Shown: piece after piece, positions 1 to 61,482 of the stretch
Layout of the letters: each line of letters opens with the position of its first letter
Position numbering within the stretch: the stretch's first letter is position 1
DNA from: Aurantiochytrium sp. KH105
Lineage: Eukaryota > Sar > Bigyra > Thraustochytrida > Thraustochytriidae
Direction of reading: 5' to 3'
Length of the DNA: 64,000 nt
Assembly: GCA_003116975.1 (NCBI GenBank)
Contig: BGKB01000070.1
Coordinates: forward strand, 9,810 to 73,809
Made by a program: the position numbers and the translations under genes
Notes under the pieces: model-generated
What the model was told of the DNA's origin: nothing
Database searches by the model: none
The model's input: only the letters and a program-made list of their open reading frames with translations

Positions 1-1437
1 ATCGACTATGATGACGGTGACGCCGAGCGCCGCGTTGCGCCGCACCTCATTCGCTCTTTGGCGACGCCGTCACGAAGCCGATCGCCACGACGAGATGCTC
101 TTGACTCGGAAACGGACGCCGAGCCTGGCTTTAAGCGCGGTGATAAGGTCGAAGCCCGTTTTGGTGGCAAGTCGAAATGGTACAAGGGCACGATCGTACG
201 CGTTTACGCAAGCGGCGCCTGCGATATCGACTACGATGATGGCGATGCGGAACGCCGCGTTGCGCCGCATCTCATTCGCTCTTTGGGGGCGATGCCGTCC
301 CGAAGCCGATCGCCACGACGAGATGCTCTTGACTCGGAAACGGACGCCGAGCCTGGCTTTAAGCGCGGTGATAAGGTCGAAGCCCGTTTTGGTGGCAAGT
401 CGAAATGGTACAAGGGCACGATCGTACGCGTTTACGCAAGCGGCGCCTGCGATATCGACTACGATGATGGCGATGCGGAACGCCGCGTTGCGCCGCATCT
501 CATTCGCTCTTTGGGGGCGATGCCGTCCCGAAGCCGATCGCCACGACGAGATGCTCTTGACTCGGAAACGGACGCCGAGCCTGGCTTTAAGCGCGGTGAT
601 AAGGTCGAAGCCCGTTTTGGTGGCAAGTCGAAATGGTACAAGGGCACGATCGTACGCGTTTACGCAAGCGGCGCCTGCGATATCGACTACGATGATGGCG
701 ATGCGGAACGCCGCGTTGCGCCGCATCTCATTCGCTCTTTGGGGGCGATGCCGTCCCGAAGCCGATCGCCACGACGAGATGTTCTTGACTCTGAGACTGA
801 TGCCGAGCCCGGATTTAAGCGCGGGGACAAGGTCGAAGCTCGTTTTGGCGGTAAGTCGAAATGGTACAAGGGCACGATCGTGCGCGTCCATGCAAGCGGC
901 GCCTGCGATATCGACTATGATGATGGCGATGCCGAACGTCGTGTCGCTCCGCATCTTATTCGTACATCAGTTGCATCTCGTTCACGTTCTCGATCGCGGT
1001 CGCCGCGTCGGGAGCCGAGCGATTCGGAGACAGATGCGGGTCCTTCTTTCAGGCGCGGGGATAAGGTTGAGGCTCGTTTTGGTGGCAAGTCGAAATGGTA
1101 CAAGGGCACGATTGTGCGTGTCCATGCAAGTGGCGCCTGTGACATCGACTACGATGATGGCGATGCGGAGCGTCGCGTTGCTCCTCATCTTATTCGCGCG
1201 TCAAACATATCTCGCTCTCGCTCTCGATCGAGGTCGCCGCGTCGCGAGCCGAGCGATTCGGAGACAGATACGGGCCGTTCTTTCAAGCGCGGCGACAAGG
1301 TCGAGGCCCGCTTTGGTGGCAAGTCGAAATGGTACAAGGGTACGATCGTGCGTGTTCATGCAAGTGGCGCCTGTGACATCAACTATGATGATGGCGATGC
1401 GGAGCGTCGCGTCGCACCAAATCTCATTCGATCGGTG
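1..1437 (+). repeat. Coding tandem repeat, 228-bp unit (76 aa, RS linker plus Tudor-like domain)
   Basis: The unit starts at matching points 226, 454 and 682, a period of 228 bp. Copies 286-513 and 514-741 are identical base for base as read here. The copy before them differs mainly in its first ~20 bases and is 3 bp shorter. The copies at 742-970, about 970-1200 and 1200-1437 are progressively diverged at synonymous and linker sites. More distant Tudor-like units follow at about 1735-1890, 2035-2200, 2220-2370 and 2770-2930. The array is cut by the left edge, so total copy number is unknown. Confidence 0.95.
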
Positions 1438-4400
1438 CCAAACTCTCGAAGCCGATCGAAGCAAGGCAACGCAAGTGCCGAAGACCGACTCCGATATCTC
1501 TTCGATCGTGAATCGCAAGATGTGACTCTTGGCACTGCAGGCGAGCTTTTGCGTAAATTCTCCGGCCGTGCCTTGTCTTCAGCAGAACGAAGACAAATGA
1601 TGAACATGGTCCGACAGCAGGGTTTGCGACCACGAGATCCAATTGAATTTGCGCACTTGGTGGACATATGTCGGGAGCTCGGCCTTTTGGGAGAAAGCAG
1701 TGCAGAGGACGACCATCCACAAAGCGTCGACTTGAGGGAAGGAGACCGGGTCGAAGCAAAATTCGGAGGTGGGGCAAAGTTTTATACCGGTCGGATCGTA
1801 CGCGTCAACCACGATGGAACGTACAACATCGACTATGATGATGGCGACTCGGAGCGACATGTTGACCCTTCTCTCATACGCTCTCTTGCTTCGAAAGCCG
1901 GATCTTCTCCTCGGCGTTCGCGCGCAAGCTCCCGTTCCAGATCTCGGTCTCGGTCCCGGTCCCGGTCTCCGCGAAGGTCACGATCACCTCGAAGGGATGG
2001 AAGTGAGGAGTCTTCTTCGGAGCAGAGTGACTCATTCGAAAAGGGGCAGACCGTGGAGGCCAAGTACGGAGGCGGTTCAGTGTGGTATCAAGGACGTATC
2101 ACCGCCGTGAACCGCGATGGAACGTTTGCCATCGCTTATGACGATGGCGATAAAGAGAATAGGGTTCAGGCGCGCCTCATTCGCGCGGTAAAATCATCTC
2201 GTAGAGCAAGCAGCAAGTCTCCTCTAACAAAGAATGCCAGAGTTAAGGCGCGTTTCAAGGGCTCTGCGGAATACTACACGGGCAAAATCACGGCAGTGAA
2301 CCGAGACGGAACTTATGCAGTGGCCTTTGACGACGGCGATTTCGATGACCAAGTGATTCGAGCAAACATTGAGCTGCTGGACGAAGGCCCAGCGGCCAGC
2401 CGGAAAACGGCGGATGATGGCCAGCTGAAGCGCTTCAAGTACGTGTTTGATCGCGAAGCCAAAGTCACACCGGGAACGGCAGCAGAAGTGATCCGCAAAG
2501 TGACTGGAACAGCTCTTAGCTCTGAGCAGCGCAAACAAGCATATATGTTCTGCAAGCGTAAAGGATTCTCGTCCGCTAAAGCTCTCAGCTTTGGTGAATT
2601 CAAGAGTATCTGCGTCGATCTTGGGGTACTTGACGAGAGTAGCAGCGAGGAGAGCGAGGAGAGCTCGACTGAGCGACACGGAACCAGGAGGCGGAGTCGA
2701 AGCCCTCGAGGTGGCAGGAGCCCTCGTCGAAGTCGGAGCCCTCGAGGAAAAGAGCATAGCAAGTCGTCCGAATTTGTCGTGGGCGATCGCGTAAAAGCGC
2801 AATTCGGGACCGGCACTGCGTGGTACCCGGGACGAATCGTGCGCGTGCATCGAAACGGCAGTGTGGACATCGACTACGACGACGGTGACAAGGAACAGAA
2901 CAAATCACCATCTTTAGTTCGCTCGCTGGATACAAACTCATCGCGAGGCAGAAGCAAGAGCCCTCGCGGCCGGTCTCGCGGGAAGAAGTCTTCCATTTGG
3001 GCCAAAATGCGCCGTGTGGCCTCGCGAGAGGCGGATCGTAATCATCGACCACCTCGATTAAGCGAGATTGAGCGCGAAAAAGACTATCGCGCACGTTGCA
3101 GAGCCATTCTCGGTGCACGTCGCTTTAAAGAACTTCAGCGAGCCTTTGACAAGTACGATCGAGACGGCAACGGGGAGCTCACGGAAAAGGAAGTCGCTCA
3201 AACCTTTCGTGATATGGGCAAAGACTTCTCGCGCGCAGATGTGCAGCGCTGGATTAAAGAAGTTGACGCTGATGGGTCTGGCACCGTGGACCTGGTCGAG
3301 TTCATCCAGGCATACACTGGCATAACCATGGACAGTAGTTCGGAGGACTCCGATTCCGAAAGCGAGTCATCAACTTCCTCCGTGGGTCGAGGTCGCGGTC
3401 GTGGTCGAGGTGGGAGCGCCAGAGGCAGAGGTCGGAGTCGCTCACGGCGGCGCAAAAGACATCACTCGCGCAGCTCGACGAGTTCTGAATCTTCGTTGTC
3501 TAGTGGGAGCGAAGTGGCGGAGCGCAAGTTATGGAAGAGAGAGGCTTGGGCCAAGCGGCTCGATGAAGATGCGATCGGCGCCATCGAAGACGCCTTTGAG
3601 GAGTATTGTTCCAAAACCCGGCGTGGAAGGCGTATTCTTCCTGCAAAGTATGTTCGTGTAGCACTCGTTGACACTGGCAAGGAGGCTTCGGTGTCACAGG
3701 TCAGCGAGTACATGCGTATCATGGGGCTTCAAAAGCACGATGCTCTATCATTGCCTGAATTTGCGCATGCATACGTGTACATGTTTTGCGATCCGGAGCG
3801 CGACGAGTTTGGGCGCGTCGGCTCGTACTACGAAAAACTTTGGGGATCAGGAACCTCGGGGCGCGCTGGCGGCGCGACACTAAGCCAACGCAGCTCCCTT
3901 GGTGACACGGAAACGATCGCTGCGCTTGCTGCGCAGACGTTTCGTTCCGGAGAGTGGAAAGGTTCACGAGAACAGCACGAAGCACTTTTACGCAAGCTTT
4001 CTCTTGGACGCTCGAACGAGGTCATTGACATTTTGAAGAAGCTCGTTCGCGCGTTCGAGGAGCTTGACTCAGACGAGACGGGCGAGGTCAGCGCCTCAGA
4101 TACCGAGGAACTTTTGCGCAAAGCGGGTCGAGATCCAGCGCCGCTCCGGGCAACTCTTGACGCCTTTTGTAAAGCACGAGCACGCACGTCGCTACCAGAG
4201 CTGCTGGCCGCTTTTGGCTTCGTCTTTGAAAGTGTTTCAGGCGAGCCCACTGTGCCTGCTGCCTTTGCAATGCTTCGCCTACACTCTACACCTCGCGATA
4301 CCCGCGTTGCTGCCGAGACTGCTCTGCAGTACTTGAACGACGTCTTGGCGAGGCCTGATGACGCGAACCTATGGCAAATCAGGGTCCGCGATAAAGCATT

Positions 4401-7400
4401 TCAGGCGCGTATTGGACGTCTTCGCGGAGGCATTGAACTTATGCACGCAGTGGGATTCGCCCCTAAGCGAAAGGCGTCTACCACGGACGGTGCTGCTGGG
4501 ACGGATCACGTTCACCTGTTGGCGCTCCGTGGCGTTGCGGACAAGTACGGGCGCACAATGGTGGAGGGAGTGCCTCAAGACACGCTTGCAACCCTTACGG
4601 TACGACGCGAAGAAATCGAAAAGGAGCTTCGGGCTATGGAGGGCGGCTCGAAAACAATCGGAGAGGCCGTTCGTAGTCTTCAACAGGAATGTACGCTAGC
4701 GCAGCTTCGTCTTGCGCTGGAGACGAGTCTCGTCATCGTCACGGATGTGCTGCAGAATCCCAAGGACTCGCGTAAGTGGCGAGTGCGCTGCGCTAACCCG
4801 CGTTTCCTCAAGTGCATAGGGCAGTGGGCTCATGGCTGTCAGCTCATGGAAGCCGTAGGATTTGAAAGAGTGGACGGCGCCGACGTTTACGTTTTGCGCG
4901 GCACGGCCGCAATCCCAAAGGGGGCCACATCAAAAGATTTTCGGTTTCCGCAACTGGAAAAAGATGTGGAGGACATGTTATGGCGTCGCAAGGTCGACAT
5001 TGAGGGTGCTCTTCGCGCTCTGGAAGTCACCATTGTCACAGGGAAGTCAAATGTAGTCAGCAACAGCGATATCGTGCCTCGCTCGCCGCACAAGGCCGCA
5101 CAAACGAGAAAGACTGCCCGCATCGTCTCGCCTATCTCGCGAAGCCCTCGCAGTCGCGAAGCCGATGCCTCCAAGTTCTTTGCGACCGTTCACGCGCGGT
5201 CCGCAACCGAGGATCTTCAGCTGAAGATGATCCAAAAGGTCTTCGAGGACTTTGATGTTGATGGTGATGGCTACATTACCGCGCGGGATCTCAAAGAAGC
5301 TTTACTCAGGCGTGGCCACGACAACAGCGACGCCGCGGTTGCAGCGTGGATCCGCTCCCGAGATATTGACCACGACGGCTCTGTGTCGTTGGCCGAGTTC
5401 ACCGCTTCGTTTGCACATACTGTCCCACCGCGTGTGATGGACGGTCGAGGCCTGGAGAATGTCCCGCTGCAACCTGCAAAGCTAACCGAGAATGGAACGA
5501 CCTCTGCTCGCGCAAAAGGCTGGCGACCAGAGGACGCGATCTCGCCGACGGAGGTTGCGTTTGGCCTTGTTCGTCTCTTTCATACAAAGCGTCGATGCAG
5601 CTCGATTCTGGCAAATCTTTGCGCATTCACTGAGAAGGCTCTTGATCATCGCGCACGGACCTTGGACGCGACGAATAGCAGCAAGCCACAACAACAACAA
5701 GACCGAGGTAAGTCCTTCGTTCTTGCTCCTGACGACTATGTGCGACATGTGGCCAAGACAAAGGGCGCTGCAGAGATTTTGAGTGCGCTGCACTGGACCT
5801 ACGATGGCCGACGTCGATCCTATGTTTCCCATGTCGACGCCGAGGAAATGGAGCAGATGCGCGCACGGCTTCGGGAACTTGACATGCATCGCCGAGGTCT
5901 CGAGTTCCCCGAGGTTGCCAACGCCAAGGCTGTCGGCGGCGCTGTTGCGTCACTTGGTGGGACACCTTCGACGCAGGAGAATCGGCCGTCCTCATGGCTT
6001 GCCGCAATGGAAACGGTTGTGAGGTATCTTGAGAATGTATTGCACGACCCGCAGGCACCGCGCTTTCGTCGCATCAATATTCAAAATGAAACGTTCAGGC
6101 GTCGTATTGGTCGCTTACAGGGTGGTATCGAGATTCTCATCGCGGCCGGCTTTCGCGAAACAGAAGAATCCATGCTTCTGTTACCCGAGAAAGCAAGTCT
6201 ACCAGAAATCAAGGCGCGTCTTGTTGAGATAAAAGCCGGGATCGAGCCTTTGCGGGAGCAGGCGAAACTTGAGCGCAATCGCGTAACCGACAACTCGCTC
6301 GATAAGGCGGGCCAACGTCGAACGAAGGTTGTGCGAGGAAGCGATTTGCCACAACAGCAAAAGGACACGAATGGCAAGAAAGAGTCTCCTCGAAAATCGA
6401 CCGAAACGCCTCATGGGTTCGCGAATCGTCGCATTGAGTCGCTTCGTATCAAGGAGCTCGAGGCCCAAGTGCATGTACTCAAGGAAAAACTTGTGGAGAC
6501 ACGCAAGGTGAAAAAGGCTTCCGAATTGCAGGAATCTGTTGCGTCCTCATACCGAGGCGATGAAACAGCCGACATTCCGTCCGAGCTCGTGACTTACGAG
6601 CTACTCGCGCAAGAACGCTCCCGCAACAGCGGTCCAAGAAGCAAAATGCTGAAGCGTGGATCTGGTCTCGGGGGCGGAGCTCTTCTCGGAACCTCTGCGT
6701 CACGGGCAGCCGGTGGGCGAATTGGGCCACTTTCTCGCTCCGGTGCTCCATTGGTGCGCGCAAGGGTCTCTCGGGGCGCAAGTCGAGGCCAGGGCAAGCT
6801 TTTTGTCACATCAGATCAGGGATTTAGGAACGGTGACATGATTCTTGTGGGCAAAGTGAGCGAGACGCAAGAGGCACGATTTGTCGTTGGATTCTCTGAT
6901 GGCTGCCTCATTCTCGACCGTGTTCTGGAATTTGATCACGAGGAAGGTATACCTGTCATTACAGGACGGGCCAACAAATCGGAAATGAGAGACTTTCGGC
7001 GGCGCGAGATCGCCGACTATGTCGTATCCGACATCCTCTTGCCGCTCGTAGAGAACTGCGTGGACGCAGGCGAGGCCGTCGTTCGCGCTCGAGACTTGCA
7101 GCGGCGCTTTGAGGAAAGGCCGCTGATGAAGCCTGTTTTCGTTAGCCGTCTCGAACATGAAAGCACACTCGGAGAAGATGCACTTCTGGTGGGCGCTTCA
7201 ACTCTCGCACGAGACAATCCGAGTGTCAATGCGGCTTCGTTGCCAAATCGTCTCTGGTATTCTGAAAAGATGGCCACTCTCTATGTTCTGCGCCACGCGA
7301 ACGAAGCACACGTCTGGACGGAGGCAATGTCTCCCTTGGAGCTGCGAGACCTCTTTGAGCTCATTGATGCGGACGGAGACGGCAGAATCTGCCGCGATGA

Positions 7401-10400
7401 GGTTGTTGCGGCAGCAAGTAGCGAGCCGCGCGTCGCGGCTTTACTTTCGGCAGGATGTTTTCGCAACGTGGACGGAGGAGATCATGACTCCTCGCAGGCC
7501 TTTGCTACGATCTTTGACGGTCGTCAAGCAGAGTTGACATGGGAGGAGTTTGCGAGCTTTTTTAGCGCTGGGGCCAGACGCGCGGCTCAGGAGCGCGCAA
7601 CGCCAGGATGGTGGACAACACTTCGTAGATGGTGTGAAGAAGCGTGGGCAAGCGGTCTCTCTGAAGATGACCTGCGCGAGATGCATGTCACCTTTTCGCT
7701 TTTCGACGCCGATGCGGACGGGAAGCTGTCCTTTCAGGAGTGGCGCGCAGCCTGCCAAAGTATGGATGGCATTTTCCCAACGAGCGCCGGGTGGCCAGAT
7801 GCCCCGCGGAGTCAGCTTGCATCAGACGCTGAAGCGGCAGAACTTTGGTCCAGTGCACGAAGAATCAACTTTGCCGAGTTTGGCAAACTTCGTGCTGCGC
7901 AAGCACGTCGTCATGGAGATGTTCATGCCGGCCAAGGAATGTCGGCGTCTTCCGCTCTCGGTGGCCTCGGCATTCTCACTCTTATTCGTAGAAACCTTCG
8001 CAGGCTTCATGCGGAGCTTCTCCGCCAGTACAACGGAAAGTTCACGAAGGCAATCTTCCTTCAAGGGTGCTTTGACGACACCGCGCTTTTAGAGCTCATG
8101 CACTTTCCTTTGGCCCAGAGCGAAGATGCTGGTCAGTCCATGGAAACTTTGGAAACGCGCTTACGGCAATTTGGGGCCCATCCTCGGGCAACCTCAACGC
8201 GTGCAGTGAGCTGGGCTGACATAGCACGCTGTGTTAACGCCTCGTCTTCGCCGACTACGATGATGCCTCTTCGCGCGCCGGCGCTGTTTTCAGGGCGTGC
8301 TCAGCGCACGGTATGCTTTGGTCAGGATGACGCAAAAGTGTACGAGGTCGCGTGCGACCAAGAATTGCAGCGAGTGTTCGTGCTGTACCTCAGTGGGGCA
8401 CTCGTAGTTTGGTCAGCAGACGGCAAGCGAGAACTCTGTCGTACACAAGTAATGTCGCACGCCTCACCCGCCCGACATGCTATGGCAACGGGGTCACGAG
8501 CCATGAGGGTACTTCAATTCGACAGCAAAACATCGCTTCTGATCGTTTGCACTGCGCCGGTCGACAACCGCTTCCAGGTGCTCGAATCCGTAAGTTTACG
8601 CAATTTACGCGATATCACTCTTCATGTAAAGCCAGCCGTTGGCGCGGAACTTGCTCCCGTCATCGAAGTCGCAGAGTTCTCGTCGCGATGGGACGCTGTC
8701 ATTTGCGCCGTTTCAGGCGGGGCGGCGAACATTCAGATTCTCTGCGCCCGATTCGGTCACCCCATAGCGCTCGTGCCCGCTGCCAAGGAATATTCGGGCA
8801 TCCCGCGTCTTCTGTATGTGCCCGATGCGGAATTCCTTGTAGCAGGTGATGCGGGCGGAACGCTCCGTTTCTGGGATCTCGCGGAGCAGCTTCGCTGGCG
8901 ACGTGCTGCGAGCGACGCATCCTCGCAAAGCTTGCAGGCTCTTCTCTCGAAGCTGCGCAAGGCGTTAGCACTTCGCGCTTCGTTGGACGACAACGAAGAC
9001 TCCTCCCGACGCGCCGTGCTCCTCGCGCAAGATCGCGCACATCTCTCGTGGACTGTGCGCTACTCGGACGATCTCGGAGGCACAGAGACGAAGATTGATG
9101 CGTGCAGACTTCGACTTCCTTGGAAGGAAGTCGTAGACAGCGAAGAGATTTCTGGGGTTTCGCAATTCCGCAAAGGCATGGAGGTTATTGTTGTTGGCCA
9201 AAAGCTCGTCGAAGTTGCCATATCTCGGCTCTACCCCTCGCGGCCTGGCCATGCAGACGTTCTCGTTGTTGGCACTGGCGAAGGTTGGACCTCCGTGATG
9301 CTTCCTGAAGAGCTCGGTCACGTGAACGTGGGAGATCGCGTTCGCATTCCTCTGCCAGCCGAACATGGCGACGTGGAGGCTCTTTTCGCGAGACTTGACG
9401 AGAATGGCGACGGCGTGGTTTCGCTTGAGGAGCTCAGCACATTAGTCAGAGAGCACGCTCGACTTGATCTGCATCGCGAAGACCTAGCACGTGTCTTTGA
9501 CTACATCGATGTCAATAAGGACGGCCAGGTGTCACTGCGAGAGCTTTCGGCCGCCCTCAAGGATCGCGACGAAGGTTTTGCAAGAACTCGCGCCGTGAAA
9601 CGTCCGCCCAAAGAACTTGTGTGCCGTCACACCACAGTGCTGCCAGGAAAAGGAAAGAGCACACAAGTCACGGCTCTTGCCTTTTTGCGCATGGCCGGCT
9701 TGGTATGTGCTGCGACCTCGGGAGGTAAAATTCACCTTGTCGACCCGCTAGTGCGTCGTTTTCGACTCACGCATCGTGCCTTTGCCGACCTTCACGCAGA
9801 GACGGGGCCCGAGTTTACCCAGGCGTCGGAAAACTATGCCTGCGTGCATTCCTTCGATGTCCCCCGTGGGGGCGTTGTCTCACAGTTGAGTCCCGTTTAT
9901 TTTCAGTCTGCAGGCAAGGACACGCACGTGCCCGTCACGTTGGATCACGCGCAAGCGGAAGCTGCAAAACGTGCTGATCAAACGCTGCAGGACAGCCTCG
10001 GGCCAGATGACGCTCTGGTGCAGGGCTTTGCCTATATTTCTGCGAACGGTAGTGTACTTGTCGTTGCAGCGTCGGGATTTGACGAAAACATGGTGTTGCT
10101 GCAAGACCAGAGTCTGTTTGGCATGACAGGGGCAATGACGCGCCCTGGGGGCTGGTCTTCAGGCACAGACGACCTTCGCCGAGCGTATCGTCTACGCACC
10201 AGCGTTCGACGCGTGTTTTACTTTGTGTCCAAGGAGGCTCGCGGTCTTCCGGAAATACGGGCTTCACTGGAACGTGGAGGCTTGGCGCTTCTTGACTTGA
10301 TGAGCATCGAGCGCGCTCTCGAAAATCCACATGTACATGTCTTTCCTTTTTACCAGCAGGGCGATGGGCCCAACTCAGTTCTCGCCAATCCTCGCAGCTC

Positions 10401-13400
10401 GTCTTCACTCGAAAGTGTGGCAAATCATGTGGGCATGGTCACTCGAAGGATCGGCAAGAGCATGTACGAAGTTGCTTACGACGCCTCTCGGAGTGTTCTC
10501 AAGCTTCCTCGACACATGCTTGAGCCCCTGACCGACGCGCACGGCTCGCGAGATTTACACACCGGTGAACGGGTTCGTGTGCAGCAGGGCATGCTGTACT
10601 CTGACAACCGCAGTGCTTCTGATGGCGCGGTCGCTCGAGAAGATTCCACGGGATCTCAATTTGGACCCCCAGGTGACGGATCTTCTGTCGAACTGCTCTC
10701 TGCGCTCTTCATCAAACGAGATGGTAGCTTAGGCGTTGGGACGTGGTCTGTCGATCGAATCAACGTGCTCACACCTGCGCGAGACCTTGCTTACCCTCTA
10801 TCGCGAGTGCAACGTCTCGCTGCGGTCCGCTCGGGGGCCAGATGGCGTGCCATGGCGCACCAAAGTGTTCGCGCTGCTGCATCATTGTCCCATCTTCGGG
10901 TTCGATCTTTCCAGGCAGCGGAAGTCGGTCTCTTGGAGAAGATCGGAGAGGTCCTTCGCAATGTTTCGCTTCGATCAGGTCCCGATGACACTGAAACAAG
11001 CGCAGAAGAAGCTTTCCAGCTTGCGAGACTGCTTCCGCAGCGATGGGGTGCGCGTTTCCGGAATATGCTTCGGACATTTCGCGAAATTTTTGATCGAGTT
11101 GCGCAAGGGCAGTCTTGCTCAACGTCAAGCCTGATCGACGCTGTTGAGTACTCTTTTGCCTCGGGCGACGAGGCCAACAATCTCGGCCTCGACTTGGGCC
11201 TCGGCGGCAGTTTCGCGCGCTTTCGAGCGGCAATAACTCGCGACGGGAAGCGACAGACGATCGAGCTCGTTACGTTGCTGGAGTGCGTGGTTCGGCTTCA
11301 CAGCGAAGTCCTGGCGCCGGAAGAGGCCTTTGACGTTTTGCAGCAGGTGCACTTTTTAGACCGTGATACATGCTCCCCTGATCAAGTTCTCGAGGTTTGT
11401 CGAGGTCTTCCTTCCGACGCACCAGGAGAACCCAACTTTGGTTTCTCGGAGGCGAACTTTGTGCTCTTTGCAAGTCGAATTGATCCATTCTGGTCTGTGC
11501 GAGATGCCGTTCAGCGGACCCGAGCGCTTGGCAGCCGCGAGAATTTGCGAAAGCGCGTGCCGCAGCACAAATTAGTACGCCTTGCAAGTCTTGTTGTTGC
11601 AAGAGACTGCACGATGGAACTTGCCGCCTGCAACGAGAATCTCAAAGCGCTCATGGCCAATCTCAAGCAGCGTGCTGTGGGTCACGTTAATGCAAGTGTG
11701 CATGACAATTTGCTGGAAGCCCCTAAAATCGACGGGAACGATGCACAGGAGGATGCTGCCATGCCAGGAAATTCATCCACGACTTTGTGGAACCTTGGAA
11801 CTGAATCGACAGAATTTCTCTTGCGGTCATCGGAACGTGCACTCGCAGCTCTTGACAGTGCAGCGCCGCCGAAATATAGGCTTGCTCTCGACGGCGAGGA
11901 TACATCTTGTGCACAGAGCATGCCTCAGCGAACGGTCTATCGTGCGAAGGGATGGACCCGGCAACAAGGTCATGGCAATCCCCTTGACCTTTGGGTCCAT
12001 GTTGTCGATGAGCAAAAGCTGGCCAGAATTCAGTCATACGATGGCCAGCCTTATGAAGCACATCTAGAGCGAGAGGCAGCAATGTACCGGCTACTCGAGA
12101 AAGATGGGGTGGCTCCTACGATTCTCGACAATGCGCGACCGGTAGAAGACGAATGCAGAAAGACCGTAGCCGACGGCTCTTACACCATGGTATTTGGAGC
12201 TTTGCCAGGTTGGCGAACACTCCGTGAGTGTATGGATGCTCACGGATACCTCGGCCATCCTTCATTGGCGCCGCTACTACTCTCATGGTCCTATCAGTTG
12301 CTTCGCATTCTGAAAATCATTCATGCAAAGGGTATTGTGCTGCGCGGGCCGCGACCTCGGCAGATTCTGGTATCGCCTTGCGGACGTTTTCTCCGTCTGT
12401 CGAGTCTAGCAACTGCGGGTCTGCTTGCCCTCGATGGAGCTACGGAGGGCGAGATGGTGGCCGGACCGGATCTGGGAGAAGTTGTCTCTCCGGAAGAGCG
12501 TGGCTATGATCCCGTAAATGACACTCGCGACGGCGCGCGACCTTCCAAAGCATATGACATGTACTGTTTTGGGTGCCTTCTCATGGAGCTTATTACTGGT
12601 TCCGTCATTCCGCGCGAGTCAAACTCGTTCCCCTATGGCCTCTTTCAACTGAGTGTACCGAATGCAAAGTCATCACTAAGTGCCACAAGTACATTGACAC
12701 TCGGCCCACGAGGAGAATTGCAGCTTCGACGCACGGATGGGGCCCTACCAAACGAAGCTTGTGCGGTTGACGCGAGCATGAAGCAGCTCGCAGAATTCAA
12801 GGCGATGGCATTTGCAATTCAAGCTGGAAGTTACGTAGGCGATGATCTCGTGGCCTCGGGGCCGTTTGTCATCGACATTGCCATGCAATGCCTCAAAGCA
12901 GATCCGGGCTCTCGTCCGCTCCCCCAAGACTTGATGGAAGCAGAGCGACTGTTGATCACCGAGTCCGATTTCATAGAGGCGGGAAAGATTGCTCGTCGAT
13001 GGCTAGCACGCGATCGTATTTGCAGAAATGTGCGGCAGGGCGTTGCCGTTCCGCTCGAGATCCTTATTGCTCAGACACATTCTCAGGATGCCGGCGCAAA
13101 GTGGCACGATGGCGCTATGGATCCTCGAATGCTCTTGGATGCTGTGGAAGCCGTCGTTGACTGCTGCTGCTGTTCCGTGAGCGGCAATGTCGATGGTGAC
13201 AGCGTGCTGGGATCATCTCCATCTCTGTGCGATGAGGTTGTGGCTATGGGGGCCTTGCAATCGGTTGTCAAGTTGACGCTGCGCTTTTTCTCGAGCGGGG
13301 GAGGTGCGGATGTTCCCGGTCGAGGGACCTCGGACCTTGGTTTTTTAGAAGGCGATCCAGGCGAACCGCTTCGACTTCGTGTGCTGAAACGGGTCGTCTT

Positions 13401-16400
13401 TGGTTTTCAGACAATCGGATCCGAGTTTGCTCGACCTGCAACGGCTCATGTGCCGATGGCCAAGCATGTGGGTCCTTATCTTCGAGCGATCCTATGCTTG
13501 TACTTTGGTCGGGAGGATGGTCTCGAAGATGAATCTAAACTGGCGGAACAGTACACAGCGTCAGCCCATCGTCAGGGAACTGTTCACTGGACGCCAGAGC
13601 TTGAAATGTTCGTCGCTCCTCTGCTCCGCCAAATTATCACAGACGAGGGAGGCGGTAACCCAAGGCTTCCAGCAGTAAGGGAATATATTGGGACAAAGAA
13701 TGCCAAGGTCGATGCTGGCAGCGATCTCGCCGATCACTCTGAAGTTTCCGAGTCCAAACGCAGTATCGTCTACCTCCGCGAAGTTCTAAGTCTTGGGCAC
13801 AGCCTTTCGCAGCTTGCGTCTGTGCGGCGCAAGTCCAGGTCACGTTTTGTTGCGGGGAGGCAGGTGCTCTCGCTTCTACGGTCGCCGATCGCGGAACATG
13901 CGCGCCTGTGTCTCGACATGGACATTGCTCCACGCGCGGTCGTCCTCATCGGCGATGAGGATCTCGAACTCGCCCAGCTGGCTCTCGATAGCGCCAAGGG
14001 AATCATGGATGGGCCCTCGGACCTGGCGCACTCTGACACGAATTCCCAGAGTCCACGAGAAGAGCTCTTGCTTCGCCGAGCGCAAGACAAGATGGGCCTC
14101 GTCTTTGCATCTGCATCGTGCGTCTCTATGCTTGTACAGCGTGCTTTGAGCGATGCAGCAAGCCTTCGCGAGTCTGCGCTGGACATTTTGCAGTTGCAAG
14201 TTCGCGGGGGAGAGGCCATGACCGCGGCATGGCAAGCTTGCGACGTTTTCTCTGCCCTCTTTCACGTGCTTCGAAAATTACGCAGTAAAGGTGCTGCGCA
14301 GATTTGTTCAACTATTGCCGTGTACGGAAATCGGGCCCTTCTTACTCAGTTCCATGCGCACGCTGAGCTTGTCGAGCTTGCTCGTGATGACTACAACATC
14401 GAAGTGCCATGTGCTATCGTCGGCGAGGGTGCAGATGATGCCGAGGCTGCCCTGGAGCGTCTTTTGGACGATACCAAAGAGGCGAGTCTTGTAGACGAGG
14501 TGCGCCAACTGCTGGGACGCATCCGTGTCGCTGTCACGGTCGACTTTGTGGCGGACCGCAGTCTCCACGAAATCTATGTGGCCCTTCTTAAGACAGTTTT
14601 TCAGCAGTGGGTATCGGATTTTTGGGCTGCGTCTCTTGACAGCGCTCAGCTCGCGCAAGAGCGTATACCCGTCATCAAGGTTGCACTGGCCATGACGCAG
14701 CAGGTGATCTTGTCAGAAAATCCGCAATTGAACGTTCGGCAAGCGTCCTTTCTCCTGCGCGAATCTGGCTGTTTTGCAGTCTTTGCGCGCATCATGCAGG
14801 AAGACTTTACCGACTTTGCAAGCCTCACCGCTGACATTCTCAGTCTGCAAACGAGCGCGGCAAATTTTCTTCTCTGCGAGTGCGCCGGACAGGACGAGGC
14901 ACTGGAGGCGCTGATGGGGGGGATTAAGGAGGCTTCGTGTGGAGACCTTGCTACGTTATACCGCACATACGTGGAAACGAATGAGGTTCTTTTGCGCGAG
15001 AGCTCCGACGATGCAAAGGGCGACGAGCATCGTGATCTTCTCTTTCAGTGGCCGCAACGAAGTGCAGTGACTCGTCGTGCTTGGCGTGTCCTTTTGCGGG
15101 CAAGCACGGCATGCATGTCTCTTCAGGATGAGCTTGTACGATCCGGATTCGTGCAACACCTATTGACAAATCTCTTGAATGACCGCACGCGACTCGTTGC
15201 TGGTGTGCATCAACTTCGACTTCGCGACATTCTCGGCACCACGTGGAACGAGAGCTGCCCACTTCGCATGGACGCAGTGAACCTCGTTTGCGCTCTTTGC
15301 CAAAAGGCGTCGATCCTGAGCTCACTGCGAGCAGAATTGGTGGCCAACATCAAAGCTGCAGGCGTCATCTCCCGCGAGGCGCGACGGCTGCAGCAGGGCG
15401 CGCAAAGGCAGATTCGCGAGGCACAGGAAGCGCGGTCAGTCCTCACGGCCATTTCTTCCATGAAGGAAAATCAATTGCAGGAACTCCTCGTTCGCGAGCG
15501 AGAAGACCTGAATGACGATTCTATTGTATCAATCTTTGGCAAAGAGCCCCACGCAGAAGCACGAAGACCTCGAGAACATGCTCCATACTTTAAAGAGGTT
15601 CCTGCGCAAAATGAAACAAAGACCTCACAGGAATCGGATCTAGTAGCAGATGATCGAAGGAAAACCAACGCAAGTACGGCTCCCGATCACCTGAGCGATG
15701 AGCGTCAACGCGGTCTTCCTTCAGCGGCACAGACCGCCAACTGTCTCGACAAGCTCGGAGATGCAATTGTCGACGCCGAACAGATATTTCGCGAATACGC
15801 GCGCCAAATAAGGAACCATCGTGCCGGGAAACAACTTACGAAATCTGTTCTGGGGAAGCAGGAGCTACAAAAGCTGCTGCAGTCCATCTCTGCGAGCGCT
15901 GCGACCCGTCGCGCAGCAGCAAATGCAATGCGAGCCGAGCCTCACATGGACTTGCATGGGTTTTACGAGTTTTATGCCACGTACCTGCTTGGATACAATG
16001 GTAAAAACGATCACGTCTTGGAGAAGCGTCCAGCCGCATCTTCGTCCGGGGTGGATGTCAAGACGCTGGACACTCTCTTCAAGCGATTTGATTCGAATCA
16101 GCAAGGGGTGCTGTCGATGCGGCAGACGCAAGCCGCGCTCAGTTCAATGTCTGGCGTTCGTGCGCTTCTCGATGGCGAGGTTGAGACGCTGGCGCGTTCT
16201 CTCAGTTTTGGGTCCTCCACAACGATCTCGTTTGCAGAATTCTGTAAACTCGCGGACACAATCAACTTGCACGCTGACTTACACATCGGAGAGGAAGATG
16301 ACTCGTCAGTGTCCTCCTCGACACGGGATGTCTTTGCTGGGTACAGTGATGCCCTAAATCTCCTGAGTGGTGGCAAGCGCATCTATGCTTTTCTCGTGGA

Positions 16401-17031
16401 GTGTCTTGCGCTTGTGGGCGAGAGCAAGAGCCTCCCATCAAAGGAGGATGTCGCCGCATGGCTTCTTGTACAAACAGGCGAAAGGAGTGCCTCAATTGAT
16501 TGGTGGCAGGCACAAAAGCTAATCGCCTGGGCGAAATCTGGCGCGCCTCCCATTCTGCCAAGCTCAGAGGCCTCAATGACGACGTCTCCTCGTCTTGGCG
16601 GTGGTGCCGCAAAAGGCGGCGAAGGCGACGACAACACAAAATCTGACTTACAGTCAGTCCAACTTAGACAGCTTGCCGCTTCGTCTCGGATGCCGCCCGG
16701 CCAGCTTGACGAATCTTCTCAAGCAGGACCGAGCGTGATCACTCTCGAGGAAGCGATCGCACGCATTCCTGGTAAGCTTGCCCGCAAGGTTGGCGAAATC
16801 AAACTTGCTGCTTTGTGGCGCGCTTTCTGTCGCTATGGCGGCGGGCGAGATGGAAGTGTACGCTTTGTGACTCTTCGCGCAGCATTTAACGACATGGGTC
16901 GAGCGTCGGTTCCAGACGGAGATCTTTACCAGTGGATCCGCAAGCACGACGCATCGGGGACTGGCACTGTTCGTTTCCGCGATTTCGTCGCTTCATATTC
17001 TTCTTCTTCTTCTTCTTCTTCTTCTTTGTAA
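1..17031 (+). CDS. Giant Tudor-repeat / EF-hand / PUB / WD-like / pseudokinase protein (5' end outside window)
   Basis: One frame runs open from base 1 to a TAA at 17029-17031 with no intron, so the N-terminus lies upstream; the first bases already encode the end of a Tudor-like unit. Order by nucleotide: about ten full Tudor/agenet-like units (1-2930) with a YDDGD motif, separated by RS-rich linkers and two degenerate EF-hand-like segments (about 1470-1700 and 2420-2630); a canonical EF-hand pair (3115-3320); two PUB domains (4270-4545, 4705-4900); an EF pair (5215-5420); a weaker PUB-like segment and a further PUB domain (5560-5880, 5995-6230); coiled coil (6420-6530); EF-hands (7330-7420, 7660-7770); WD-like blades (8320-8900, 9620-10110) around another EF pair (9370-9570); a kinase-like domain (11930-12990); an ARM-like helical region (13100-15330); coiled coil (15360-15500); C-terminal EF-hand-like segments and a serine run. 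A scaffold that links Ca2+, methyl-mark or RS-protein binding and p97-type partners is inference from the domains only. Confidence 0.9.
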   Translation: MDYDDGDAERRVAPHLIRSLATPSRSRSPRRDALDSETDAEPGFKRGDKVEARFGGKSKWYKGTIVRVYASGACDIDYDDGDAERRVAPHLIRSLGAMPSRSRSPRRDALDSETDAEPGFKRGDKVEARFGGKSKWYKGTIVRVYASGACDIDYDDGDAERRVAPHLIRSLGAMPSRSRSPRRDALDSETDAEPGFKRGDKVEARFGGKSKWYKGTIVRVYASGACDIDYDDGDAERRVAPHLIRSLGAMPSRSRSPRRDVLDSETDAEPGFKRGDKVEARFGGKSKWYKGTIVRVHASGACDIDYDDGDAERRVAPHLIRTSVASRSRSRSRSPRREPSDSETDAGPSFRRGDKVEARFGGKSKWYKGTIVRVHASGACDIDYDDGDAERRVAPHLIRASNISRSRSRSRSPRREPSDSETDTGRSFKRGDKVEARFGGKSKWYKGTIVRVHASGACDINYDDGDAERRVAPNLIRSVPNSRSRSKQGNASAEDRLRYLFDRESQDVTLGTAGELLRKFSGRALSSAERRQMMNMVRQQGLRPRDPIEFAHLVDICRELGLLGESSAEDDHPQSVDLREGDRVEAKFGGGAKFYTGRIVRVNHDGTYNIDYDDGDSERHVDPSLIRSLASKAGSSPRRSRASSRSRSRSRSRSRSPRRSRSPRRDGSEESSSEQSDSFEKGQTVEAKYGGGSVWYQGRITAVNRDGTFAIAYDDGDKENRVQARLIRAVKSSRRASSKSPLTKNARVKARFKGSAEYYTGKITAVNRDGTYAVAFDDGDFDDQVIRANIELLDEGPAASRKTADDGQLKRFKYVFDREAKVTPGTAAEVIRKVTGTALSSEQRKQAYMFCKRKGFSSAKALSFGEFKSICVDLGVLDESSSEESEESSTERHGTRRRSRSPRGGRSPRRSRSPRGKEHSKSSEFVVGDRVKAQFGTGTAWYPGRIVRVHRNGSVDIDYDDGDKEQNKSPSLVRSLDTNSSRGRSKSPRGRSRGKKSSIWAKMRRVASREADRNHRPPRLSEIEREKDYRARCRAILGARRFKELQRAFDKYDRDGNGELTEKEVAQTFRDMGKDFSRADVQRWIKEVDADGSGTVDLVEFIQAYTGITMDSSSEDSDSESESSTSSVGRGRGRGRGGSARGRGRSRSRRRKRHHSRSSTSSESSLSSGSEVAERKLWKREAWAKRLDEDAIGAIEDAFEEYCSKTRRGRRILPAKYVRVALVDTGKEASVSQVSEYMRIMGLQKHDALSLPEFAHAYVYMFCDPERDEFGRVGSYYEKLWGSGTSGRAGGATLSQRSSLGDTETIAALAAQTFRSGEWKGSREQHEALLRKLSLGRSNEVIDILKKLVRAFEELDSDETGEVSASDTEELLRKAGRDPAPLRATLDAFCKARARTSLPELLAAFGFVFESVSGEPTVPAAFAMLRLHSTPRDTRVAAETALQYLNDVLARPDDANLWQIRVRDKAFQARIGRLRGGIELMHAVGFAPKRKASTTDGAAGTDHVHLLALRGVADKYGRTMVEGVPQDTLATLTVRREEIEKELRAMEGGSKTIGEAVRSLQQECTLAQLRLALETSLVIVTDVLQNPKDSRKWRVRCANPRFLKCIGQWAHGCQLMEAVGFERVDGADVYVLRGTAAIPKGATSKDFRFPQLEKDVEDMLWRRKVDIEGALRALEVTIVTGKSNVVSNSDIVPRSPHKAAQTRKTARIVSPISRSPRSREADASKFFATVHARSATEDLQLKMIQKVFEDFDVDGDGYITARDLKEALLRRGHDNSDAAVAAWIRSRDIDHDGSVSLAEFTASFAHTVPPRVMDGRGLENVPLQPAKLTENGTTSARAKGWRPEDAISPTEVAFGLVRLFHTKRRCSSILANLCAFTEKALDHRARTLDATNSSKPQQQQDRGKSFVLAPDDYVRHVAKTKGAAEILSALHWTYDGRRRSYVSHVDAEEMEQMRARLRELDMHRRGLEFPEVANAKAVGGAVASLGGTPSTQENRPSSWLAAMETVVRYLENVLHDPQAPRFRRINIQNETFRRRIGRLQGGIEILIAAGFRETEESMLLLPEKASLPEIKARLVEIKAGIEPLREQAKLERNRVTDNSLDKAGQRRTKVVRGSDLPQQQKDTNGKKESPRKSTETPHGFANRRIESLRIKELEAQVHVLKEKLVETRKVKKASELQESVASSYRGDETADIPSELVTYELLAQERSRNSGPRSKMLKRGSGLGGGALLGTSASRAAGGRIGPLSRSGAPLVRARVSRGASRGQGKLFVTSDQGFRNGDMILVGKVSETQEARFVVGFSDGCLILDRVLEFDHEEGIPVITGRANKSEMRDFRRREIADYVVSDILLPLVENCVDAGEAVVRARDLQRRFEERPLMKPVFVSRLEHESTLGEDALLVGASTLARDNPSVNAASLPNRLWYSEKMATLYVLRHANEAHVWTEAMSPLELRDLFELIDADGDGRICRDEVVAAASSEPRVAALLSAGCFRNVDGGDHDSSQAFATIFDGRQAELTWEEFASFFSAGARRAAQERATPGWWTTLRRWCEEAWASGLSEDDLREMHVTFSLFDADADGKLSFQEWRAACQSMDGIFPTSAGWPDAPRSQLASDAEAAELWSSARRINFAEFGKLRAAQARRHGDVHAGQGMSASSALGGLGILTLIRRNLRRLHAELLRQYNGKFTKAIFLQGCFDDTALLELMHFPLAQSEDAGQSMETLETRLRQFGAHPRATSTRAVSWADIARCVNASSSPTTMMPLRAPALFSGRAQRTVCFGQDDAKVYEVACDQELQRVFVLYLSGALVVWSADGKRELCRTQVMSHASPARHAMATGSRAMRVLQFDSKTSLLIVCTAPVDNRFQVLESVSLRNLRDITLHVKPAVGAELAPVIEVAEFSSRWDAVICAVSGGAANIQILCARFGHPIALVPAAKEYSGIPRLLYVPDAEFLVAGDAGGTLRFWDLAEQLRWRRAASDASSQSLQALLSKLRKALALRASLDDNEDSSRRAVLLAQDRAHLSWTVRYSDDLGGTETKIDACRLRLPWKEVVDSEEISGVSQFRKGMEVIVVGQKLVEVAISRLYPSRPGHADVLVVGTGEGWTSVMLPEELGHVNVGDRVRIPLPAEHGDVEALFARLDENGDGVVSLEELSTLVREHARLDLHREDLARVFDYIDVNKDGQVSLRELSAALKDRDEGFARTRAVKRPPKELVCRHTTVLPGKGKSTQVTALAFLRMAGLVCAATSGGKIHLVDPLVRRFRLTHRAFADLHAETGPEFTQASENYACVHSFDVPRGGVVSQLSPVYFQSAGKDTHVPVTLDHAQAEAAKRADQTLQDSLGPDDALVQGFAYISANGSVLVVAASGFDENMVLLQDQSLFGMTGAMTRPGGWSSGTDDLRRAYRLRTSVRRVFYFVSKEARGLPEIRASLERGGLALLDLMSIERALENPHVHVFPFYQQGDGPNSVLANPRSSSSLESVANHVGMVTRRIGKSMYEVAYDASRSVLKLPRHMLEPLTDAHGSRDLHTGERVRVQQGMLYSDNRSASDGAVAREDSTGSQFGPPGDGSSVELLSALFIKRDGSLGVGTWSVDRINVLTPARDLAYPLSRVQRLAAVRSGARWRAMAHQSVRAAASLSHLRVRSFQAAEVGLLEKIGEVLRNVSLRSGPDDTETSAEEAFQLARLLPQRWGARFRNMLRTFREIFDRVAQGQSCSTSSLIDAVEYSFASGDEANNLGLDLGLGGSFARFRAAITRDGKRQTIELVTLLECVVRLHSEVLAPEEAFDVLQQVHFLDRDTCSPDQVLEVCRGLPSDAPGEPNFGFSEANFVLFASRIDPFWSVRDAVQRTRALGSRENLRKRVPQHKLVRLASLVVARDCTMELAACNENLKALMANLKQRAVGHVNASVHDNLLEAPKIDGNDAQEDAAMPGNSSTTLWNLGTESTEFLLRSSERALAALDSAAPPKYRLALDGEDTSCAQSMPQRTVYRAKGWTRQQGHGNPLDLWVHVVDEQKLARIQSYDGQPYEAHLEREAAMYRLLEKDGVAPTILDNARPVEDECRKTVADGSYTMVFGALPGWRTLRECMDAHGYLGHPSLAPLLLSWSYQLLRILKIIHAKGIVLRGPRPRQILVSPCGRFLRLSSLATAGLLALDGATEGEMVAGPDLGEVVSPEERGYDPVNDTRDGARPSKAYDMYCFGCLLMELITGSVIPRESNSFPYGLFQLSVPNAKSSLSATSTLTLGPRGELQLRRTDGALPNEACAVDASMKQLAEFKAMAFAIQAGSYVGDDLVASGPFVIDIAMQCLKADPGSRPLPQDLMEAERLLITESDFIEAGKIARRWLARDRICRNVRQGVAVPLEILIAQTHSQDAGAKWHDGAMDPRMLLDAVEAVVDCCCCSVSGNVDGDSVLGSSPSLCDEVVAMGALQSVVKLTLRFFSSGGGADVPGRGTSDLGFLEGDPGEPLRLRVLKRVVFGFQTIGSEFARPATAHVPMAKHVGPYLRAILCLYFGREDGLEDESKLAEQYTASAHRQGTVHWTPELEMFVAPLLRQIITDEGGGNPRLPAVREYIGTKNAKVDAGSDLADHSEVSESKRSIVYLREVLSLGHSLSQLASVRRKSRSRFVAGRQVLSLLRSPIAEHARLCLDMDIAPRAVVLIGDEDLELAQLALDSAKGIMDGPSDLAHSDTNSQSPREELLLRRAQDKMGLVFASASCVSMLVQRALSDAASLRESALDILQLQVRGGEAMTAAWQACDVFSALFHVLRKLRSKGAAQICSTIAVYGNRALLTQFHAHAELVELARDDYNIEVPCAIVGEGADDAEAALERLLDDTKEASLVDEVRQLLGRIRVAVTVDFVADRSLHEIYVALLKTVFQQWVSDFWAASLDSAQLAQERIPVIKVALAMTQQVILSENPQLNVRQASFLLRESGCFAVFARIMQEDFTDFASLTADILSLQTSAANFLLCECAGQDEALEALMGGIKEASCGDLATLYRTYVETNEVLLRESSDDAKGDEHRDLLFQWPQRSAVTRRAWRVLLRASTACMSLQDELVRSGFVQHLLTNLLNDRTRLVAGVHQLRLRDILGTTWNESCPLRMDAVNLVCALCQKASILSSLRAELVANIKAAGVISREARRLQQGAQRQIREAQEARSVLTAISSMKENQLQELLVREREDLNDDSIVSIFGKEPHAEARRPREHAPYFKEVPAQNETKTSQESDLVADDRRKTNASTAPDHLSDERQRGLPSAAQTANCLDKLGDAIVDAEQIFREYARQIRNHRAGKQLTKSVLGKQELQKLLQSISASAATRRAAANAMRAEPHMDLHGFYEFYATYLLGYNGKNDHVLEKRPAASSSGVDVKTLDTLFKRFDSNQQGVLSMRQTQAALSSMSGVRALLDGEVETLARSLSFGSSTTISFAEFCKLADTINLHADLHIGEEDDSSVSSSTRDVFAGYSDALNLLSGGKRIYAFLVECLALVGESKSLPSKEDVAAWLLVQTGERSASIDWWQAQKLIAWAKSGAPPILPSSEASMTTSPRLGGGAAKGGEGDDNTKSDLQSVQLRQLAASSRMPPGQLDESSQAGPSVITLEEAIARIPGKLARKVGEIKLAALWRAFCRYGGGRDGSVRFVTLRAAFNDMGRASVPDGDLYQWIRKHDASGTGTVRFRDFVASYSSSSSSSSSL
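16998..17026 (+). repeat. (TTC)n trinucleotide run coding a C-terminal serine tract
   Basis: A pure TTC/TCT run just before the stop codon of the giant gene encodes about nine consecutive serines. A similar serine run of the same codon occurs in the O-fucosyltransferase-like gene near 57137-57180. Confidence 0.9.
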
Positions 17032-17114: not shown

Positions 17115-17251
17115 GGCTCGTAAAAAGTACACCATTGAAAATTGCGTTTCGCGCCGTTTTCGCTCAACCGACGATCAACGTCATTTCGCGGTTCGCGGCA
17201 TCAACGTCAGACCCGCATCCCAATCCATCACCGCGACCTGGATCTCGCGAG

Positions 17252-17278
17252 CGCGAGTGCGAGTGCGAGTGCGAGTGC
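17252..17278 (+). repeat. (GCGAGT)n hexanucleotide repeat in sirtuin 5' region
   Basis: About four and a half copies of GCGAGT lie upstream of the chosen ATG of the sirtuin gene. The frame stays open through it, but the nearest upstream in-frame start would be a TTG, so I treat the repeat as 5' UTR. Confidence 0.7.
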
Positions 17279-17383
17279 GCGCGCGGTGCGGCTCCGTCCC
17301 AGCGCGCCGCCTCGCGGCCGACCGGCGCGCCCTCGTCTGCCTGCGGACGCTCCAAGGAGAAGCGAGAGAGCGGCGCAGGATCG

Positions 17384-19273: not shown

Positions 19274-19567
19274 GCTTTGTCCTTTTCTTTCCTTTACTTT
19301 ATCTTACGAAAATGATCAACCAAATGCTCTCATTGCGTCCTTTTGAAGTTGAAAGTAGTTTGCAAGAGTGAAATTGTCCCTACGCTAGCTGTGATTGCCT
19401 CGAAGTCCTCCACTTCCATCGCCACAAACCCCCTCGCAGAGAGTCTGAAAATTTCAGTGCCCAAGATTCGTAATTTTGAGTGCCTGGTGGTCGTTAGATG
19501 CCGAGGTGGCAAACCCAGAAGAAAACAACACGTGCGCGAGAAGCCACCCAGCCGGCCAGCAAGGGCG

Positions 19568-61376: not shown

Positions 61377-61482
61377 CCAAGCGCAAGCCCAAGGCCCTTC
61401 CGCCCGAGCGCGGTCCGTGTGCCGCCCAGAGCATAGCCAGATTCATTTCCCCCAACACAAGGCTTGAAGGGGCCTCGTGACA

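Follow-up and report, generated by a model that had tools for sequence, protein, structure and literature searches.

A large open reading frame combining Tudor repeats, EF-hands, PUB domains and a pseudokinase in the thraustochytrid Aurantiochytrium sp. KH105

The locus

The window, by which we mean the whole stretch of 64,000 bases that was analysed, corresponds to C70:9810-73809 of the Aurantiochytrium sp. KH105 assembly (C denotes a contig), which comprises 76.0 Mb in 367 contigs. Many kinase matches in this assembly are repeated almost identically on a second contig, as expected if both haplotypes of a diploid were retained. The G+C content of the window is about 0.57, and half of the assembly amounts to 38 Mb; two published thraustochytrid genomes are described as having a size of about 62 Mb and 45-46% G+C (PMC7262427, PMC7073664), so they are not especially close to this one. 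The first 17 kb of the window are occupied by one open frame with the following features.

1-17031, forward strand: one uninterrupted frame, 5,676 codons and a stop, its 5' end open at the edge of the window
1-1443, forward strand: Tudor array with RS linkers, six complete units preceded by a partial one at the edge of the window; period about 228 bases
1471-1700, forward strand: spacer unit with no assigned fold and a look-alike at about 2407-2640; from a reading of the translation, possibly a degenerate EF-hand pair
1729-2922, forward strand: four more divergent Tudor units at 1729-1872, 2035-2196, 2224-2385 and 2779-2922 (alignment A3)
3124-3318, forward strand: EF-hand pair A, with one canonical loop at residue 1053 and another at 1089 (EF-hand_7 E 4.6e-17)
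3385-3444, forward strand: RG/RS-rich stretch with runs at residues 1129 and 1141, a possible arginine-methylation substrate
4303-4473, forward strand: PUB1 (Pfam 41.3 bits; PNGase PUB E 7.9e-5), two of five p97-tail pocket positions
4702-4899, forward strand: PUB2 (Pfam stretch of 31.9 bits alone, below cut-off), two of five pocket positions
5227-5406, forward strand: EF-hand pair B, two canonical loops (Pfam and loop pattern)
5542-5925, forward strand: PUB3, probable and divergent (from the alignment, with no Pfam match of its own), none of five pocket positions
6001-6213, forward strand: PUB4, the best preserved (Pfam 65.7 bits; PNGase PUB E 4.3e-11), four of five pocket positions
7330-7900, forward strand: two EF-hand regions, canonical loops at 7366-7401 and 7705-7740 (Pfam and loop pattern)
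8287-9111, forward strand: possibly WD-like region, best blade at 8815-8877 (a single PF00400 stretch with E 0.05, under the cut-off)
9379-9555, forward strand: EF-hand pair, two canonical loops (Pfam and loop pattern; PDB EF-hand chain E 8e-7)
11932-12990, forward strand: pseudokinase (Pfam similarity at 12283-12939)
13000-15720, forward strand: long region with no assigned fold
16066-17025, forward strand: C-terminal EF-hand-like region (EF-hand_7 E 1.9e-10)

A second open frame of 507 codons (window 2-1525, frame 2) overlaps the Tudor array and is probably a by-product of the repeat. Directly downstream, at 17135-21976, lie two uninterrupted frames, the first with a SIR2 domain and the second ORC3-like. 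The reverse strand encodes a fusion of a chorismate-binding enzyme with a glutamine amidotransferase domain (36489-39140), presumably an aminodeoxychorismate-synthase-like product, and an ARF exchange factor of the Sec7/BIG1 type begins within 61477-63999 and runs off the window. Elsewhere in the assembly, PUFA-synthase-like matches are located near each other on opposite strands of C72 and of C155, a layout that marks thraustochytrids, and additional pieces are found on C61 and C290. The A-like frame has 1,253-1,267 codons, and the PfaA model used here also matches 11 of 14 control genomes, none of which, nor the genome itself, passes its cut-off.

Coding evidence and extent of the frame

The uninterrupted frame of more than 17 kb described in the earlier note was confirmed. 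Given the stop-trinucleotide frequency of the window itself, a stop-free frame over 1-17031 would arise by chance with P ~10^-54, and none of the other five frames of this DNA is open for more than 507 codons. The counterpart on the second haplotype (C274) has no stop over its whole fetched length and shares 96-97% protein identity with the window. Comparison of window 1471-17028 with C274, which leaves out the Tudor repeat array, gave a dS of 0.104, a dN of 0.016 and a dN/dS of 0.156 over 5,183 aligned codons, with only three gap columns, all whole codons. Because the same frame is present on the second haplotype and dN/dS is 0.16, we conclude that 1-17031 is one real coding unit kept by purifying selection; the same two observations rule out an assembly artefact or a chance frame. 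The divergence between the haplotypes of this gene is strong (dS 0.10).

Position 1 is unsupported as the start of the gene, and the N-terminus is not part of the visible 5,676 residues. Tudor-type matches continue upstream on C274, where the frame measures 6,656 codons from stop to stop, a figure from the search tool that does not imply a start codon.

Relatives in the genome

The earlier note described the gene as giant and intronless. We discounted both features as evidence, as other single frames of 5,708 and 7,318 codons are present in the genome and introns are few in a thraustochytrid, for which 4,623 introns in 14,145 genes are reported (PMC7073664). One giant frame of 7,319 codons (C59:201730-223686, reverse strand) carries SPRY, ANAPC10, Cul7 and HECT domains and resembles a giant ubiquitin-ligase gene. 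Giant Tudor-repeat single frames were found at C8:575434-583116, C29:282560-289534, C44:843954-850202 and C33:524696-533728, with SAM, EF-hand or TBCC domains. Those on C8/C218, C29/C39 and C44/C108 match the Tudor part of the window with up to 65% identity (C218), and that on C33 is related by the Tudor profile only. EF-hands are present in the C29 and C44 Tudor frames, and C8 has a weak EF-hand match. Of the eight frames fetched, a domain scan covered the giant frames on C8, C29, C44, C33 and C59, those on C102, C6 and C70:261178-265008 lying outside it, and it listed neither a PUB nor a kinase family in these five.

The Tudor part thus has many relatives in the genome; for the half that starts at 8401, a genome search in which only the best candidates were scored gave nothing beyond matches at the level of EF-hands, so that this half is otherwise single-copy. 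Judged from sequence, the domain combination is unique among what was searched, and its novelty would lie in the combination and order of known domains, not in size, with no implication that it is absent from other eukaryotes. In the open literature searched, no paper combined a PUB domain, EF-hand and Tudor. The earlier note knew of no named family with this order, and our searches, which covered Pfam, the PDB, this genome and open literature, are in agreement.

Tudor array and EF-hands

Tudor-like repeats with RS linkers had been proposed, and both elements were recovered. Tudor_5 (Pfam) matches in ten stretches with E 3.9e-49, RS and RG runs are present, and the units belong to the Tudor domain by profile. 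A profile of the ten Tudor units (A3) matches the Tudor domains of PHF20, PHF20L1, KDM4A and 53BP1 with E 1e-4 to 0.005; its best PDB match, 2ldm (6.2e-5), is named merely 'uncharacterized protein'. The alignment keeps aromatic residues at F/Y11, Y18 and Y/F35, which may form an aromatic cage for a methylated residue. The likeness to PHF20/PHF20L1, KDM4A and 53BP1 is that of the same domain by profile, but here it occurs as a long tandem array with RS linkers, and PHD, JmjC and BRCT are not among the domains listed. Between the array and the more divergent units, window 1441-1770 gave no convincing Pfam match at E<=10. The array differs between the haplotypes, with six complete units after a partial Tudor in the window and six after a different spacer on C274; from these sequences, Tudor copy number probably varies.

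The several EF-hand pairs noted earlier were likewise confirmed, and belong to the EF-hand family. Eight canonical Dx[DN]xDG loops were found by pattern, all eight identical in the other haplotype, and EF-hand_7 (Pfam) was above cut-off in all four segments scanned, with values up to E 1.3e-28. Near the C-terminus, residues 5597-5675 share 32% identity with the stretch around EF-hand pair A.

WD-like and ARM-like regions

Two elements of the earlier description were not confirmed. For the WD-like blades, the Pfam match was marginal, and structure prediction for 8248-10920 (two sequences; mean pLDDT 27.5) was uninformative on a WD propeller. For the ARM-like repeats assigned to 13000-15720, no ARM or HEAT match was obtained in Pfam at E<=10, and the best PDB match (E 1.5) was not meaningful; prediction for 11878-15390 (two sequences) was mostly helical at low confidence (mean pLDDT 33.8).

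PUB domains

The presence of PUB domains was borne out. PF09409 matches in three stretches with E 2.4e-36, and the 124 bits for segment 2, compared with a curated cut-off of 34.3, place this segment in the family. Taken singly, PUB1 and PUB4 are above the 34.3-bit cut-off and PUB2 is below it; PUB2 alone retrieved no PUB chain from the PDB at E<=1. PUB4 resembles the PNGase PUB across 79 residues (E 4.3e-11).

The pocket of PUB domains that holds the p97 tail is described as YxxN(x)9Y plus [KR]xxN, corresponding to Y38, N41, Y51, R55 and N58 of PNGase (PMC6995525). The same report describes abolished tail binding on loss of R55 in PNGase, and counts UBXD1 N201D and Y194F, which correspond to N58 and Y51 of PNGase, among the three changes most damaging to binding (PMC6995525). 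At PNGase positions 38/41/51/55/58, one MAFFT alignment, scored with F allowed at position 51, gave Y-D-L-R-D for PUB1, I-D-K-R-N for PUB2, F-K-G-V-P for PUB3 and Y-N-F-N-N for PUB4, and none of the four window PUBs keeps all five positions.

The genome contains 26 PUB matches, six of them in the Tudor-EF-hand-PUB gene and its allele and 20 in frames of 214-1,167 codons. From these 20 we compared 13 PUB regions, two of which look like second haplotype copies. Five pocket positions are kept in one, four in five, three in five and one in two of these regions, so PUB4 with its four positions is preserved on a par with the better half. Asn58 is present in all 13, versus two of the four window PUBs. 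Tyr38 is absent from 11 of the 13; therefore, the textbook pocket may be the wrong yardstick in this lineage. The p97 of the host ends in DDDDEEDLYS, and thus has the tail motif. On these residues, p97 docking through PUB4 appears possible and docking through PUB1-3 unlikely, and the link to AAA+ machinery (p97/VCP) as a whole appears weakly supported.

The likeness to PNGase (NGLY1) and UBXD1 lies in the PNGase-type PUB4, but several PUBs are present here in place of one, the pocket is incomplete, and no glycanase or UBX domain is listed in the visible frame. The PUB of SPATA2 is described as having an altered tail pocket and another partner (PMC6995525), and we propose that the same may apply to PUB1-3.

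Pseudokinase

The kinase-like domain lacking catalytic residues, as described earlier, was also confirmed. Window 11878-13200 matches FUS3 in the PDB (E 5.2e-4); Pfam Pkinase, with E 0.002 and 18 bits, is under its cut-off of 31.7. In the alignment to FUS3, which excludes the front part with the ATP-binding lysine, HRD is replaced by LRG, the catalytic-loop Asn by Gln and DFG by SLA. The active-kinase motifs are thus missing, which rules out an active kinase. The motif stretches are identical in the other haplotype and dN/dS is 0.095 (26 synonymous and 8 other changes), from which we conclude that the pseudokinase is kept and not decaying. A scan of viral contigs with window 11878-14400 gave 16 pattern matches, none of which was confirmed.

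Selection by region

Regional dN/dS values, several of which rest on 10 or fewer changes, were low for PUB2 (0.04), EF-hand pair A (0.05, six changes), PUB4 (0.06) and EF-hand pair B (0.07). Higher values were obtained for two of the PUBs, PUB1 (0.22) and PUB3 (0.20), for the segment that holds the last EF pair (0.20) and the EF-hand region at the C-terminus (0.23), for 13000-15720 with no assigned fold (0.22-0.34) and for a coil linker (0.31). This contrast loosely backs the domain borders.

Discussion

From our analyses, the observation in the earlier note was partly confirmed and its interpretation partly supported. The segment-wise Pfam search that it suggested returned Tudor, EF-hand and PUB, with Pkinase and WD below cut-off and no ARM match at E<=10. 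The note read the gene as a Ca2+-controlled scaffold linking RS-type or methylated partners with AAA+ machinery; a multidomain scaffold, Ca2+ loops and Tudors fit the sequence, and the p97/VCP link is the part that fared less well.

The reading that we prefer, with about even confidence, is that the gene encodes one very large protein that would act as a Ca2+-responsive multivalent scaffold. Its N-terminal Tudor array could offer many weak sites for partners with methylated Lys or Arg, possibly including its own RG-rich stretch, and the RS linkers would be likely substrates of RS-type kinases. EF-hand pairs between the binding modules may shift the shape of the protein with Ca2+. The PUB domains would dock partners: PUB4 may retain binding of the p97 tail, and PUB1-3 probably have other partners, like the SPATA2 PUB. 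The pseudokinase could serve as a non-catalytic docking or switch module. A scaffold is consistent with the Pfam scans, in which no catalytic domain was above cut-off; an undetected enzyme is possible in the roughly 2,700 bases of 13000-15720 that have no assigned fold. Against a uniform picture of selection on a scaffold, the dN/dS contrast is uneven and based on few changes, with PUB1 and PUB3 at 0.22 and 0.20, and against its p97 part, PUB4 is without the basic residue on which tail binding by PNGase depends.

A different role, which we consider rather unlikely, is that of a cytoskeletal or flagellar/centrosomal scaffold among giant Tudor proteins organising microtubule structures, in which PUB and pseudokinase would be structural and p97 would have no part. 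The presence of SAM, EF-hand or TBCC (tubulin-binding cofactor C) domains in further giant Tudor frames of this genome agrees with such a role. EF-hands are found in CFAP337-type axonemal proteins, and EF-hands beside possible WD blades recall CFAP337/WDR49-type proteins. CFAP337 is described as having two WD40 propellers, however, whereas two such propellers are not detectable here by Pfam, and no CFAP337 chain was among the best 60 of 275 PDB matches for the EF/WD region. Two further, weak matches point in the same direction, a CEP104-like TOG in 13000-15720 (E 0.043) and axonemal EFHB for the EF/WD region (E 0.024), but the WD and TOG matches are below cut-off, the EFHB match is one EF-hand match among many, and nothing places the protein in the flagellum.

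The view taken in the earlier note, that of a p97/Cdc48 cofactor which, controlled by Ca2+, would recruit p97 to partners that are methylated or rich in RS, seems unlikely to us. PUB4 is clearly PNGase-type, with Y38, N41 and N58 kept and F at position 51, the host p97 has the tail motif, and the absence of Tyr38 from most other PUB regions suggests that the textbook pocket may set too strict a standard in this genome. On the other hand, PUB4 has no basic residue at the pocket, PUB1-3 keep two, two and none of the five positions while at least three are kept in 11 of the 13 other regions, and changes at two pocket places are reported to impair UBXD1 strongly (PMC6995525). In addition, the scans listed neither a UBX domain nor any other domain that binds p97.

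That neighbouring genes are fused or read through in a run-on frame, and expressed as several transcripts or processed proteins, is highly improbable: the half from 8401 is single-copy bar EF-hand-level matches, unlike the Tudor part, and the locus is compact, with the SIR2-domain frame opening 104 bases past the stop, but 17 kb run without a stop on either haplotype, EF-hands are spread along the frame from its N-terminal to its C-terminal part, and the three gap columns after the array are all whole codons.

A more far-reaching reading, which we consider quite improbable, is a lineage-specific class of giant Ca2+-gated adaptor that would deliver p97 to methylated assemblies on a rise in Ca2+. 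In it, the Tudor array would read methylated RS/RG partners, one member of the PUB cluster would dock p97, and the pseudokinase would act as a switch, all within one chain. Should thraustochytrids in general share this domain order, a single protein would combine Ca2+ sensing with methyl reading and perhaps with p97 docking. The PUB cluster, in which most copies appear to have drifted from the p97-tail pocket, would help in finding out which other partners PUB domains have.
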